Below are positions 4,894-12,096 of a stretch of DNA of 64,000 bases, one piece after another. Source of the stretch: Peredibacter starrii (GTDB lineage Bacteria > Bdellovibrionota > Bacteriovoracia > Bacteriovoracales > Bacteriovoracaceae); assembly GCF_034259205.1 (NCBI RefSeq), contig NZ_CP139487.1, forward strand, positions 372,001 to 436,000, given 5' to 3'. Each line of letters opens with the position of its first letter. Positions within the stretch are counted from its first letter, which is position 1. A program made the translations under genes and the position numbers. Under the pieces are notes generated by a model, which saw nothing but the letters and a program-made list of their open reading frames with translations, was not told the origin of the DNA and made no database searches.

Positions 4894-5490
4894 ATGAGTA
4901 ATTTTAAAGTCAAAGACCACTATTTTAATAAGGCAAAGAACGAAAACTTTCTTGCCCGCTCAGTTTATAAGCTGGAAGAGATCGACGAGAAATACAAGAT
5001 CTTGAAACCCGGCATGCAAGTGGTTGACTTCGGTTATCATCCTGGATCGTGGATTCAGTACACCAGCCGTGTGATTGGTGATGAAGGTCGCGTGGTAGGA
5101 ATTGATGTCCGTGAGGTTAATAAAAAATTATCTGGTGTTAAAAACGTACGCGTTTATCAAAAAGACATTTTCGATATTCATGATCTTAGCCAGTTAGAAG
5201 TCGACGGACAGTTCGATGTGGTTCTGTCTGACATGGCGCCAAACACAACTGGGATCAAAACTCTGGACCAAGACCGCAGTCTCAATCTGGTTGAATCGGT
5301 TTTTGGCCTTCTTCCTCGTTTCTTAAAACCAGGTGGAAACTTCGTCATCAAGGTTTTCGATTCTCAAAGTGCTCAGAATTATCTGAAAGAGCAGAAAAAC
5401 CTGTTCAAAGAGTTCCATTATCTAAAACCAAAATCTACCCGCAGTATTAGCAAAGAATTTTTTGTCATTGGAAAGAGTTTTAAGGCATAA
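4894..5490 (+). CDS. rlmE: 23S rRNA 2'-O-ribose methyltransferase RlmE (FtsJ/RrmJ)
   Basis: RlmE methylates the ribose of U2552 (E. coli numbering) in the ribosomal A-loop using S-adenosylmethionine. The catalytic tetrad of the family can be matched: K26 in SVYKLEEID, D113 in LSDMAPN, K153 in FVIKVFDS and E188 in SKEFFVIG. The SAM-binding loop reads VDFGYHPGSW instead of the common VDLGAAPGGW. Length 198 is typical. The ATG at 4894 has AGGG just before it, closer than ideal. It is followed after 8 bases by the penicillin-binding protein gene, so the two are probably co-transcribed with lepB. Confidence 0.93.
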   Translation: MSNFKVKDHYFNKAKNENFLARSVYKLEEIDEKYKILKPGMQVVDFGYHPGSWIQYTSRVIGDEGRVVGIDVREVNKKLSGVKNVRVYQKDIFDIHDLSQLEVDGQFDVVLSDMAPNTTGIKTLDQDRSLNLVESVFGLLPRFLKPGGNFVIKVFDSQSAQNYLKEQKNLFKEFHYLKPKSTRSISKEFFVIGKSFKA

Positions 5491-7576: not shown

Positions 7577-7598
7577 AAGGCCCCGTTTGGGGCCTTTT
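7577..7598. terminator. Bidirectional rho-independent terminator between lepB and mutS2
   Basis: AAGGCCCC-GTTT-GGGGCCTT is followed by TTTA on the plus strand and by T-rich sequence on the minus strand as well. It serves lepB (stop 7571) and the convergent mutS2, whose stop codon at 7598-7600 touches the stem. Confidence 0.9.
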
Positions 7599-9961
7599 TA
7601 TTTTAGGACAATCTTTGTTTCACCATCATTCCCAGTTTCTGGAAGCTCGCCCTGAAAATCTCGCGAGCGTTTTAAATAATCTCTCAGCCAATTTTTAAGC
7701 ACACCATCACCGTGTCCATGGATCACACTGATATATGGCACGTCTCCTGAAAGTAAATCACCTAGCGCCTTCTCAATTAAGTTTTGAAACTCGGAAAGTC
7801 GCATCCCACGAACATCAAACTCTAATTGAGAGCTTGAGGTCTTCACGAAACTCACAGACACTTTTGGTTTCAACGGTGCTCGTTTTGAGCGACCAAGGGT
7901 GGCCACCGGAACCGTAAGCTTAATCGGGCCTTTGGCAATCGTGACTTCACGACGACGAAGATCCACTCCTTGTACCGTGAATTCTTTTTTCAGAGTATGT
8001 GAGTAAACGGTATCGCCGGATTTAACTTCCTCGATGGTTAGATCACCTATCGGAACTTCTTCTTCTACGACTTCAATGCCACGAAGTTTATCAATCTGAG
8101 TTTTCAGTTGGTAAGACTTATCATCGATGCGTTTAACTTTTTGAATTTCGTTACGACGAGCTTCCTCTACGAGGGCCCGCGCTTCGTTCAAAATTTTATC
8201 CACTTCCTGACGGGCCTTGGCGAGTTCTTCCTTCATGCGAAGATTTAGGATCCCTTCCATGGCACCTTTTTGGTTTTTAAGTTCCACTTCAAGCTGACGA
8301 TTGGAAGTTAGAATCTGATCGAGCTCAATTTGTTTTTGAGAAACTTTCTGAAGGAGAGTTTCATAACTCACGTTCTTAGCACTCAAATGCGAAAGCGCCT
8401 TGGCAGGCACGTCTTTCACCTCATCATGACCTCGTGAAAGAATGCGGAAAATATCAATCGCCATGGAGGCACCTGGGGTCCCCCACTGGATTTTATAAGT
8501 GGGTTTCATGTTGGTGGTATCAAAGCCCACGTGACACGAAATGTAGTTTCGATCCTGGTGAATCAGGGTCTTAAACATTTGGTGGTGGGTAGAAACCACA
8601 ATGTGGCAAACTGCGCGTTTATGAAGTTCATCAAAGTATGAAAGTGAAAGTGCTGAAGCTTCATCAGAGGATGTTGAGTTAAAGATTTCATCGATCAGAA
8701 TTAAATTCGATGGAAGAATATTTTCCATGAGATCGATATAGTTTTTCACTTCACCTGAGAAGGATGAAAGACCGACTTGCAGGTCTTGAAGGTCATTGCC
8801 GAAATAAAACACGCCTTCATAAGGATACATTTCGGCCTCGGCCGCAGGGACGAAGAAGCCGTGATAGAACAATAAGTACGCAAGTGTTACTGATTTAAGA
8901 AAGACCGTCTTACCACCAGTGTTCGGGCCAGAGATCACAATTCCGTGATTACTCTGATGGCAATCGGCACTGTTTTTAACTGGGTTCTTAATCAAGGGAT
9001 GAAAAAGCCCAGTGAATTTAAATCCAGGATTAGATCTGATGGAAGGGCATTCCAGTTGATACTTAGTCGCAAAATCTGTTTTCGCGAGATAGAAATCAAT
9101 TCTTCGCACGACATATAGGCATTCATTAATCAGATCACCGTGTTCACCCAACAAGCGGGAGAACTTCATGGCGAGTTGATTTATGATTTCATCAATCTTA
9201 GCAATTAATTCTAGTCGGCGGTTACAGGCGTCTCTGACTTCAAATGGTTCAACAAAAAGGGTCTGACCAGATTCTGAACGAGAAACAATGAGACCAAGAT
9301 CCGAACGATAAGAATCTGAACGCACTGGTACTACGAAACGATCATAGTGAACGTCATAACTATTATATTGAAGGACTTTTTGGTTGGCGGCGTTGTTGAT
9401 CCATTCCTGGACCGTCTTTCTAATTTTGTCTTCCAGTTCACGCAAACGGCGATTCAGATCCGCTAGTTCCGGATGACGTTCAAAGTGAACCTCGCCTGAG
9501 CTGTCCACCAGATGGCGAAACTCACGCAGGAACTTCCTTTGAATCGGCATGAAATCCATTTCTGTGATTTTTTGAAATTCAGCGATTTTAAACTTTGGAA
9601 AATCTTGTTTTATGAACTGAGCACTTTCAATGAGGAGAACAACTTTATTGAGTTCGCTAAAGTGCAGCACACCTTCTTTCGCCAGATGCAGAATATGACG
9701 ATCGAGTGATTCGTCTGCGGGAAGTTTTCCAAAAAGTTGACTCACGATCGGTCGGTAGTCATCTTTAAATTCTTGTAAGTAAGTCTGAGTACGAATGAGT
9801 TCAGCAGACAGGTCTTCCCAACGATTCGCAAAGAGCTGCGTCACGAGGCCTTTCTTATTCGATTCAAAATAAGCGAATTGAGATATAATGCCTGAAAGGA
9901 CATCCCATTCGACTTGTGCGTGATGCACGGAGTGTTGAGTAGTGATAAGATTAATCGTCAT
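7598..9961 (-). CDS. mutS2: MutS2 (Smr-domain ATPase, ribosome-collision and recombination factor)
   Basis: This is a MutS family ATPase without mismatch-recognition domains. In Bacillus subtilis MutS2 binds collided ribosomes and feeds the ribosome-associated quality control pathway; in other species a role against recombination is reported. The Walker A GPNTGGKT lies near residue 345, Walker B LILIDEIFN near 422, and a long coiled coil covers about 535-620. A KOW-like segment follows, then a C-terminal Smr domain with FDVRGMR and HGHGDG. The start is ATG 9961 (MTINLITT...). Its first base directly abuts the first base of the divergent rqcH start (CAT|ATG), and no clear ribosome binding site is visible. 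Confidence 0.93.
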   Translation of the reverse strand: MTINLITTQHSVHHAQVEWDVLSGIISQFAYFESNKKGLVTQLFANRWEDLSAELIRTQTYLQEFKDDYRPIVSQLFGKLPADESLDRHILHLAKEGVLHFSELNKVVLLIESAQFIKQDFPKFKIAEFQKITEMDFMPIQRKFLREFRHLVDSSGEVHFERHPELADLNRRLRELEDKIRKTVQEWINNAANQKVLQYNSYDVHYDRFVVPVRSDSYRSDLGLIVSRSESGQTLFVEPFEVRDACNRRLELIAKIDEIINQLAMKFSRLLGEHGDLINECLYVVRRIDFYLAKTDFATKYQLECPSIRSNPGFKFTGLFHPLIKNPVKNSADCHQSNHGIVISGPNTGGKTVFLKSVTLAYLLFYHGFFVPAAEAEMYPYEGVFYFGNDLQDLQVGLSSFSGEVKNYIDLMENILPSNLILIDEIFNSTSSDEASALSLSYFDELHKRAVCHIVVSTHHQMFKTLIHQDRNYISCHVGFDTTNMKPTYKIQWGTPGASMAIDIFRILSRGHDEVKDVPAKALSHLSAKNVSYETLLQKVSQKQIELDQILTSNRQLEVELKNQKGAMEGILNLRMKEELAKARQEVDKILNEARALVEEARRNEIQKVKRIDDKSYQLKTQIDKLRGIEVVEEEVPIGDLTIEEVKSGDTVYSHTLKKEFTVQGVDLRRREVTIAKGPIKLTVPVATLGRSKRAPLKPKVSVSFVKTSSSQLEFDVRGMRLSEFQNLIEKALGDLLSGDVPYISVIHGHGDGVLKNWLRDYLKRSRDFQGELPETGNDGETKIVLK

Positions 9962-11293
9962 ATGATCCAATACTATCTAGATTTAGAGAAACAAGTTAAA
10001 AATATCAAAGAAAAGGCCCTCTCCCAAGGGCAAATCCAGAAGATTTATAGTACGGCCTACTTTATTTCCCTAGCAATTCGCGCGCCTGGAAAAACCTGGC
10101 ATTTATTCATTGGGCGGGGAGGCGGCCAGGAAGGTTTGTGGTTGCATGATTCGCCTCCTCCCTCTGTGCTGAGACGAAAAGATAACTTTCTGGAATATTT
10201 TCGTCGTCACTTAAGTGCCTGCAGTTTCCTCGATGTATCACTCGATAAATACGATCGTATCGCTAAACTTACTTATCAAAAATTTGGTGAAGAACAATCC
10301 TTCCTTCTCTTCTGGAAGGGCCGCAAACTTTATTTCCTTCATCATTACCAGGAGCAACCTGAAGCTCCTTTTAAATTGCTATTAAGTTGGCGGGGAAAGG
10401 CCTTTATTCCAGGAATTGAGATAACTGATCTCTATGAATATTTTGATGAGATCGGTCGCCATCATGACATGAAACATGACATGGCCTCTCCCGAAATTTA
10501 TGGAATGGAAAAACTCCTGGAAGATGAGCTTAAGGCCTCCAACCTTAAAGGTATGGGCTCTGCTCCGACTTTTCTTCAGAGGAAAAAAGACAATATCGAA
10601 GATGATTTACGTCGTACCAAGCAGTGGGACAAGCTTCAGGCGATCCTTGATAAAGGAGAGTCGCTGGATATGTACGAGCTAAAAGTCGGTGATCATAAGA
10701 TCAAGTTTGAAGGTGAACTCAATCCTTATGAACGAAGGAACCTTCTCTTTCAAAAGATCAAAAAACTCAAACGCGGCGAAAGCATTCTAAGTGAAAGACT
10801 TAAGACTGTAACAGATCAGCTGGCCGGAAAAGAGACAACGGTTGCTGCAACATCAACAATTCCCATCACCAAGCCAATTTGGGGAGAAGAAAAAACTCCA
10901 ACATTCCAGGCCCCAAAAAATACAGCTGATGAGTATAAAATTCTATCATTAGAAAATTGTCAGATTGGTGTTGGGTTAAATTCCCAAGGAAACGATCAGC
11001 TCAGAAATAAATGGGCCAACAAAGAAGACTACTGGATCCATCTTGATGGACAGAAAAGTTCCCATGTCGTGATTAAGCTTCCTACTGGGCAGGCGTTGGA
11101 CCCACAAACGCTAAACTTAGGGGCCTCAATAGTTGCCCATTTTTCTCACTTTAATGCTGATTGGATTCCCATCATCTATACCCAGGTGAAAAATTTGAAG
11201 GGTGTTTCCGGGGCCGCGGGTATGGTAATATACAAAAAGGAAAAACATCTACAATGTCCCAGAGTTAATCTGGATAACGTAATTAAGGACTGA
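9962..11293 (+). CDS. rqcH: NFACT-family protein, RqcH-like ribosome quality control factor
   Basis: RqcH binds 60S/50S-peptidyl-tRNA complexes and adds alanine tails to stalled nascent chains; older annotations call the family fibronectin-binding. The N-terminal NFACT-N domain has the GQIQKIY motif, and the functionally essential Asp-Arg pair is at D98-R99 (KYDRIAKL). A coiled coil spans about residues 200-290. The C-terminal NFACT-R domain is recognisable in NKWANKEDYWIHLDG and SSHVVIK. At 443 residues it is shorter than the Bacillus protein (about 570), with a reduced middle part. The start ATG 9962 abuts the mutS2 start. A TTG at 9914 in frame would add 16 residues inside mutS2. Confidence 0.85.
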   Translation: MIQYYLDLEKQVKNIKEKALSQGQIQKIYSTAYFISLAIRAPGKTWHLFIGRGGGQEGLWLHDSPPPSVLRRKDNFLEYFRRHLSACSFLDVSLDKYDRIAKLTYQKFGEEQSFLLFWKGRKLYFLHHYQEQPEAPFKLLLSWRGKAFIPGIEITDLYEYFDEIGRHHDMKHDMASPEIYGMEKLLEDELKASNLKGMGSAPTFLQRKKDNIEDDLRRTKQWDKLQAILDKGESLDMYELKVGDHKIKFEGELNPYERRNLLFQKIKKLKRGESILSERLKTVTDQLAGKETTVAATSTIPITKPIWGEEKTPTFQAPKNTADEYKILSLENCQIGVGLNSQGNDQLRNKWANKEDYWIHLDGQKSSHVVIKLPTGQALDPQTLNLGASIVAHFSHFNADWIPIIYTQVKNLKGVSGAAGMVIYKKEKHLQCPRVNLDNVIKD

Positions 11294-11295
11294 CC

Positions 11296-12096
11296 ATGAA
11301 GGCCCTACTTTGTTTATTGTTCGTTACTTCTACTGCATTTGCACAAGACGCTGCCACATATTTAAAGAACTTTGATGCCAAAGTTTACTCTCTTAAAACT
11401 AAGGGTGTGAAAGATTTTGTGGTTGATATCGAAAGCACAAAATTAACGAAACAAATGAATGATCAGCAGGTCTTCGGGAAAGTTAAAGAAGTCGTTTTCC
11501 GTACTTATTGGACCGCGAATCCAGAGCGTTTAGCAATTGAAGTGGAAGGACTTCCTGATGGCTTTAAAGAGATCAAAGAAGAACTTAAACTTTCTCTATT
11601 GGGGATGATGGATAACCTTATCCCTCCTACGATGGCCCAACGTTTTAATGGTTATAAGTTTGCAAACGGAAATAAAGCGAAAGAATTTATTGCCCAAGAT
11701 ACAACTGGAGTGGCACCCATTCCAAGTTTCGTATTGAAGTTTGATCAGGAAGACAAATTGGTTGAAGTGGTGGGACAAAAACCAATCGGAACTTTAAATA
11801 TTGCCCCGGTTTATGCCAAAGAATCATTCTCAGATGGACGCTATGTTCTTAAACAACAGACTACGACCAGTACAGAAGGTAGCCAGACTGTTACAATCAA
11901 GAAAGTGTTGGAATATGGCCAATCTCAAGGCATCGGTGTTTTAACAGGCGTAGAAGTGACCACTGAACAAAAAGGTCAGAACGGAAAGGCCGTCTCTGCG
12001 ACAGATGAACTTACTTTCAAAAACTACAAAATCAATGCCGGTGAAGCCCTGAAATTCTTTCTTGGTGAAGGCACCAAAGAGATCAAAAAGAAATAA
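11296..12096 (+). CDS. Secreted protein of unknown function
   Basis: A Sec signal peptide (MKALLCLLFVTSTAFA, cleavage before QDAATY) is followed by about 250 residues. The mature protein is rich in beta-type sequence such as FVVDIESTKL and EVVFRTYWTANPERLAIEVEG, suggesting a LolA/outer-membrane-lipoprotein-sorting-like fold. I cannot confirm this by motif. It starts 2 bases after the rqcH stop, so it is likely in the same transcript, although no functional link is obvious. A terminator follows at 12092. Confidence 0.7.
   Translation: MKALLCLLFVTSTAFAQDAATYLKNFDAKVYSLKTKGVKDFVVDIESTKLTKQMNDQQVFGKVKEVVFRTYWTANPERLAIEVEGLPDGFKEIKEELKLSLLGMMDNLIPPTMAQRFNGYKFANGNKAKEFIAQDTTGVAPIPSFVLKFDQEDKLVEVVGQKPIGTLNIAPVYAKESFSDGRYVLKQQTTTSTEGSQTVTIKKVLEYGQSQGIGVLTGVEVTTEQKGQNGKAVSATDELTFKNYKINAGEALKFFLGEGTKEIKKK

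Follow-up and report, generated by a model that had tools for sequence, protein, structure and literature searches.

A head-to-head mutS2–rqcH junction in Peredibacter starrii

We analyzed a 64,000-nucleotide stretch of the Peredibacter starrii genome (contig NZ_CP139487.1, positions 372,001 to 436,000; hereafter the window), in which two genes for ribosome-rescue proteins point away from each other and start at adjacent bases. The gene mutS2 (7598-9961, minus strand) encodes a 787-aa MutS2, a collided-ribosome-splitting ATPase with an Smr domain, and rqcH (9962-11293, plus strand) encodes a 443-aa diverged RqcH/NFACT protein homologous to Rqc2 and NEMF. The mutS2 start codon, which reads CAT on the plus strand (9959-9961), directly adjoins the rqcH ATG (9962-9964), so that the CATATG junction (9959-9964), a strandless feature, holds two start codons back to back with 0 intergenic bases. 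This abutment had been pointed out in an earlier note made from the letters alone, and both the sequence and the conservation of both starts across the genus agree with it. The geometry of the junction is conserved among relatives and the coding 5' ends of both genes are constrained at synonymous positions, a combination that we read as two promoters, each probably placed inside the partner gene.

The assignment of the two starts was examined in several ways. A gap of 0 was also obtained in nearly all genus genomes from protein alignments beginning at residue 1, which involve no choice of ATG. An earlier rqcH start is impossible in three relatives (G007, G016, and G024), whose rqcH frame closes 12 nt upstream, and the upstream candidates TTG 9914 and ATG 9923 were ruled out, being closed or absent in several relatives. 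In 27 genomes with the shorter junction CATG, the overlapping ATGs are the most upstream start codons that the two frames offer. On the minus strand, TTG at 9970-9968 is a formal alternative mutS2 start that would give an overlap of 9 bp. The best Shine-Dalgarno matches to AAGGAGGT, for mutS2 and rqcH alike, are 3 nt long, in line with the earlier remark that neither gene has a clear ribosome binding site; of the starts predicted over 436 kb of the host genome, 53% have a match of at least 4 nt. The same 436 kb contains 38 divergent pairs with a median gap of 318 bp and none below 30 bp, as called by a crude predictor that mis-set the rqcH start, so that the mutS2–rqcH pair is not among the 38. 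Divergent overlaps make up ∼1% of prokaryotic gene overlaps (PMC2478687) and are under-represented (PMC2174442). The two genes abut rather than overlap in the window's genus, with 0 shared coding bases, and share 2 bp in 62 family members.

Identity of the two proteins

MutS2 matches TIGR01069 over residues 18-784 with 436 bits, above the curated whole-protein cut-off of 400, and contains MutS_V (residues 341-504) and Smr (716-787) domains, with the Walker motifs GPNTGGKT and ILIDE recognized by eye. Comparison with solved structures identified the MutS2 of PDB 7qv3 (E 1.7e-62). In the Smr domain, as read from the sequence, FDVRG replaces the DxH motif and HGHGDG is present. DxH is typical of mRNA-cleaving Smr proteins and is missing from Bacillus subtilis MutS2 too (PMC10897456), and by this criterion the P. 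starrii Smr domain would be of the splitting, not the cleaving, type.

RqcH passes the NFACT-R cut-off (PF05670, NFACT-R_1; 42.2 bits against 29.8) and falls just below that of NFACT_N (PF05833, for the N-terminal and middle domains; 30.7 bits against 31), with a match that spans residues 7-111 only. Profile comparison identified RqcH (PDB 7aqc, E 6.7e-14), and the best Foldseek matches are RqcH, NEMF, and Rqc2 (8s1u, 4e-16; 7aqc, 9e-15; NEMF, 1e-11; Rqc2, 2e-10), of which the local domain matches alone count, given a predicted template-modeling score of 0.44 for the structural model. The Asp-Arg pair D98-R99 of NFACT-N is invariant across 14 genus members, and Arg is replaced by Lys in one genome of another genus (G035). 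D98-R99 and the Smr and Walker motifs are thus all present, by sequence and by the MutS_V and Smr matches, as the earlier note had stated. Its placement of the two proteins in one pathway is borne out by the literature rather than by the window: in B. subtilis, RqcH works on the product that results when MutS2 (RqcU) splits a stalled ribosome (PMC10897456), and mutS2 is present in 97% of genomes with rqcH (PMC11633108). We found no small stand-alone RqcP-like S4 protein in the whole genome, the S4 matches being open frames of 223-414 aa that include a TlyA-like one, and ribosome-associated quality control (RQC) in P. starrii may lack RqcP or use a diverged version. A tmRNA is present in the host genome.

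Conservation of the pair in the genus, family, and phylum

Among 129 Bacteriovoracaceae genomes, 119 contain rqcH and 113 contain mutS2, and all 102 tabulated family genomes that carry mutS2 and rqcH on a single contig have them head to head. The starts abut exactly in 24 of 24 genus genomes with a readable junction, P. starrii included. At base level, 101 family junctions comprise 62 with CATG (2-bp overlap), 24 with CATATG, 3 at 1 bp, and 12 others (-26 to +51), so that CATG or CATATG occurs at 86 of 101 junctions in ∼45 genera; ATG pairs were picked by smallest distance, which introduces a mild bias into these counts. The genes are apart in four genomes (G094, G095, G117, and G149) and apparently split by contig ends in two (G059 and G064). 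Lack of adjacency in relatives would have counted against the earlier note, and adjacency is conserved family-wide. On these sequence comparisons the abutment is not due to chance.

Elsewhere in the phylum, mutS2 and rqcH are head to head in families f24, f25, and f29 with gaps of ∼6-95 bp (6 or 18 bp in G337, 19 in G336, 24 in G294, and 95 in G292; the 31 bp of G293 were obtained by joining the annotation at one contig end). They lie apart in f6 and in other families where positions are comparable, as they do in Bdellovibrio-type genomes. The same divergent pair with wider gaps in sister families indicates that the arrangement is older than the Bacteriovoracaceae and that the spacing closed inside the family. 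Several genomes outside the family (G054, G185, G189, and G204-G207) have a clear mutS2 but no RqcH match above threshold, through either loss or divergence.

The pair has also been broken naturally. Two genera have lost mutS2 (g8 and g44) and three have moved it (g41, g51, and g66), and in all five rqcH is co-directional behind lepB or a penicillin-binding protein (PBP) gene, with a stop-start overlap in g8, g51, and g66 and a spacing of 12 bp in g41 and 48 bp in g44. This close coupling fits a promoter of rqcH that was lost along with mutS2, rqcH joining the upstream operon. The breakages also mean that the linkage is dispensable in some lineages.

A predicted rqcH control region inside mutS2

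We compared same-residue codons between genome pairs, with a correction for the divergence of each pair. Across 24 genus members, synonymous differences in mutS2 codons 19-38 amount to 0.62-0.63 of expectation (z -7 to -11), and within the first 480 codons every 8-codon window below 0.75 of expectation starts between codons 18 and 35. The corresponding codons of six neighboring genes, used as controls, reach 0.90-1.14 of expectation, and in 20 Bdellovibrio-type genomes with an unlinked mutS2 the homologous block (0.90) and its core (1.03) show no significant constraint. Constraint at mutS2 codons 24-33 is also seen, independently, in genera g32, g40, and g5 (Fisher p 5e-4 with the window's genus excluded).

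The constrained stretch is predicted to be an rqcH-directed control region (9848-9907, plus strand). It contains a predicted -10 element, TATAAT, at 9884-9889 (plus strand), formed by mutS2 codons 25-26 (ATT ATA) and kept on the rqcH strand as TATAAT, TATGAT, or GATAAT in 24 of 24 genus genomes; conservation of TATAAT lies at z = 11 above synonymous-codon shuffles. Ile26 is encoded by ATA in 23 of the 24, a codon that makes up 15% of Ile codons. A weak candidate -35, GATTCA (9861-9866, plus strand; nnyTCA in relatives), would be separated from it by a 17-bp spacer. From the position of the -10, the rqcH mRNA would have a 5' leader of ∼65 nt (9895-9961, plus strand) that is antisense to mutS2 codons 1-22. 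The rqcH promoter thus most likely lies inside mutS2 codons 19-38. Leaderless transcription of rqcH was rejected for this genus, as mutS2 codons 1-18, where its -10 would sit, are unconstrained (0.96 and 1.02). The earlier note had reasoned that each promoter must lie inside the other gene or that the mRNAs are leaderless; for rqcH the first option is supported by the constraint and the TATAAT, and the second finds no support in this genus.

A weaker candidate mutS2 control region inside rqcH

The reciprocal, mutS2-directed control region is predicted at 9962-10033 (minus strand), within rqcH codons 1-24. Codons 12-24 of rqcH show 0.68-0.70 of expectation in the window's genus (g1), 0.41 in g32, and 0.52 in g3, and the matching region of the six control genes shows 0.92-1.10. 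Codons 1-8 are constrained as well, but most control genes share this feature at their 5' end. A mutS2 Shine-Dalgarno of at least 4 nt occurs in 3 of 101 family genomes, compared with 16% of random sites, and the RqcH N terminus, MIQ, leaves little room for one. The sequence offers candidate hexamers on the minus strand, a -10 GATAGT at 9977-9972 and a -35 TTAACT at 9999-9994, both uncertain. The most likely place for a mutS2 control element is within the opening ∼25 codons of rqcH, on weaker evidence than for the rqcH promoter; the mutS2 promoter is loosely placed, and with the candidate -10 the mutS2 mRNA may be near-leaderless, with a leader of ∼4 nt.

In the same part of rqcH, upstream of mutS2, there is a terminator-like hairpin with a T-rich tail (10016-10031, minus strand), which does not clearly exceed the chance expectation of 0.4. 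The sequence CTCTCCCAAGGGC at this hairpin is nearly frozen in ∼10 genus members.

Neighboring genes

The host genome is a single contig of 4.15 Mb. The gene order around the pair is rlmE, a PBP gene, lepB, mutS2 and rqcH (diverging), lolA-like, rlmI-like, and moxR; names other than lepB come from reading the translations, and lolA-like is shorthand for a gene that belongs to no known family. At the 3' end of rlmE, codons 187-198 (5452-5490) show synonymous variation of 0.04 of expectation, and perhaps contain a region for control or translation start of the PBP gene that follows. Strong synonymous constraint was also observed at rqcH codons 385-427 (11114-11242), with a minimum of 0.30 of expectation and Ile390 encoded by ATA in 22 of 23, which suggests that the gene at 11296 has a promoter within rqcH.

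Discussion

We propose, with a probability of roughly 0.68, that the head-to-head pair is an interlocked cassette, with the promoter of each gene inside the coding 5' end of the other. The confidences that we attach to this proposal and to its rivals overlap, as figures for readings that are not mutually exclusive. In the proposed arrangement, rqcH would be transcribed from a promoter in the 5' coding region of mutS2 (around codons 19-38, -10 at 9884-9889) with a ∼65-nt leader. The mutS2 promoter would lie within rqcH codons 1 to ∼25, and the mutS2 mRNA would lack a Shine-Dalgarno and have a minimal leader or none at all. Since these promoters would face and cross each other, the mRNA 5' ends would be complementary over ∼65-70 nt, both start codons included. 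Loss or movement of either gene would remove the control region of its partner, and so the pair and its spacing would stay fixed. The linkage may also bring shared regulation, as the earlier note suggested, and the balance of the two rescue proteins could be set by promoter interference or antisense pairing.

Several observations weigh against the interlocked arrangement. The constraint on mutS2 codons is not seen in g3, g42, g53, and g38, where samples are small. A consensus promoter scan of 9700-10200 returned no sigma-70 site, and, apart from the conserved TATAAT, per-genome promoter scores did not exceed those of synonymous shuffles; we therefore made no use of promoter calls from single genomes. 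The idea of one -10 position shared across the family was rejected, as the position on the rqcH strand differs by genus. Constraint at rqcH codons 1-8 was also set aside as promoter evidence, since most control genes show it and it partly reflects a general start-of-gene effect.

The rival that survives best, to which we give slightly less than even odds, is a frozen accident: compaction produced the tight spacing, which is kept only by the embedded promoters, with no regulatory coupling of MutS2 and RqcH. This is a statement about regulation and is compatible with interlocked promoters. It is favored by the wider gaps of the sister families, from which the spacing shrank later, by the genera that kept rqcH after loss or movement of mutS2, so that linkage is not required, and by promoter geometry, which alone accounts for the conservation. 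However, the two partners belong to one pathway, as would be unlikely for a random neutral neighbor, and a strict CATG or CATATG at so large a share of junctions exceeds what embedding of promoters needs. It is improbable, in our estimate, that the pair works as a reciprocal switch, in which transcription of one rescue gene occludes or antisense-silences the other; if it did, the ratio of MutS2 (splitting) to RqcH (tailing) would be set or flipped with stalling or with the phase of the predatory life cycle.

We also consider it unlikely that mutS2 itself accounts for the constraint at its codons 19-38, through features of its protein, codon usage, or mRNA, with rqcH transcribed from elsewhere. 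These codons do encode a conserved protein segment (EW...IISQFAYFE), but the test compares same-residue codons only, other conserved parts of mutS2 are unconstrained, unlinked mutS2 of the Bdellovibrio type has no significant constraint in the homologous stretch, and a rare ATA codon is retained at Ile26. Least likely of all, by a small step, is that both mRNAs are leaderless and arise at the junction, either from a pair of promoters or from one that is symmetric and bidirectional, as might be suggested by the palindromic CATATG or CATG, the family-wide lack of a mutS2 Shine-Dalgarno, the ∼4-nt leader left by the candidate mutS2 -10, and constraint at mutS2 codons 1-10 in g32, g3, and g38, for in the window's genus the constraint falls in codons 19-38 and not in codons 1-18, and the supported rqcH -10 sits 70 bp from the mutS2 start, in contrast to the start-site spacing of 10, 18, or 23 bp typical of bidirectional promoters in Escherichia coli (PMC12825309).

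The interlocked cassette that we favor can be compared with several known systems. It shares its two protein families with the RQC system of B. subtilis and differs from it in the head-to-head arrangement, in the shorter and diverged RqcH, and in that no small RqcP-like S4 protein was found. In B. subtilis, mutS2 and rqcH are not known as a gene pair. A report of their physical linkage was not found in the papers on co-occurrence that were searched, where adjacency goes unmentioned (subscription papers were mostly outside the search), and the literature search returned nothing usable on start-site maps for Bacteriovorax. Other divergent overlapping or abutting prokaryotic pairs likewise lie on opposite strands with 5' ends that overlap by a few bases, but they are usually rare and often misannotated (PMC2478687, PMC2174442), whereas here a mostly identical 4- or 6-base geometry extends over ∼45 genera. 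As in E. coli bidirectional promoters, two opposite transcripts would leave a short DNA segment; those promoters share -10 elements (PMC12825309), whereas in the present case no -10 is shared, the predicted rqcH -10 lies 70 bp inside mutS2, and the promoters would face each other. Excludons, in which divergent transcripts overlap and act as antisense, as in Listeria, also have complementary 5' ends of divergent mRNAs, but the overlap predicted here is short, within coding sequence, and between pathway partners.

The family-wide, base-exact linkage provides independent genomic support for MutS2 and RqcH acting as a unit outside the Firmicutes. It also represents a clean, conserved case of the rarest class of gene neighborhood, divergent genes with touching start codons, against which a common explanation predicts counter-selection, since regulatory DNA upstream of a gene takes up space. 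The comparisons point to a solution, in which control regions would be encoded at synonymous sites of the partner, and the pair lends itself to tests of promoter occlusion and of 5'-5' antisense control in ribosome rescue. In the Bacteriovoracaceae, predatory-type bacteria, the on-switch of at least one gene for clearing jammed ribosomes would thus be hidden inside the other.

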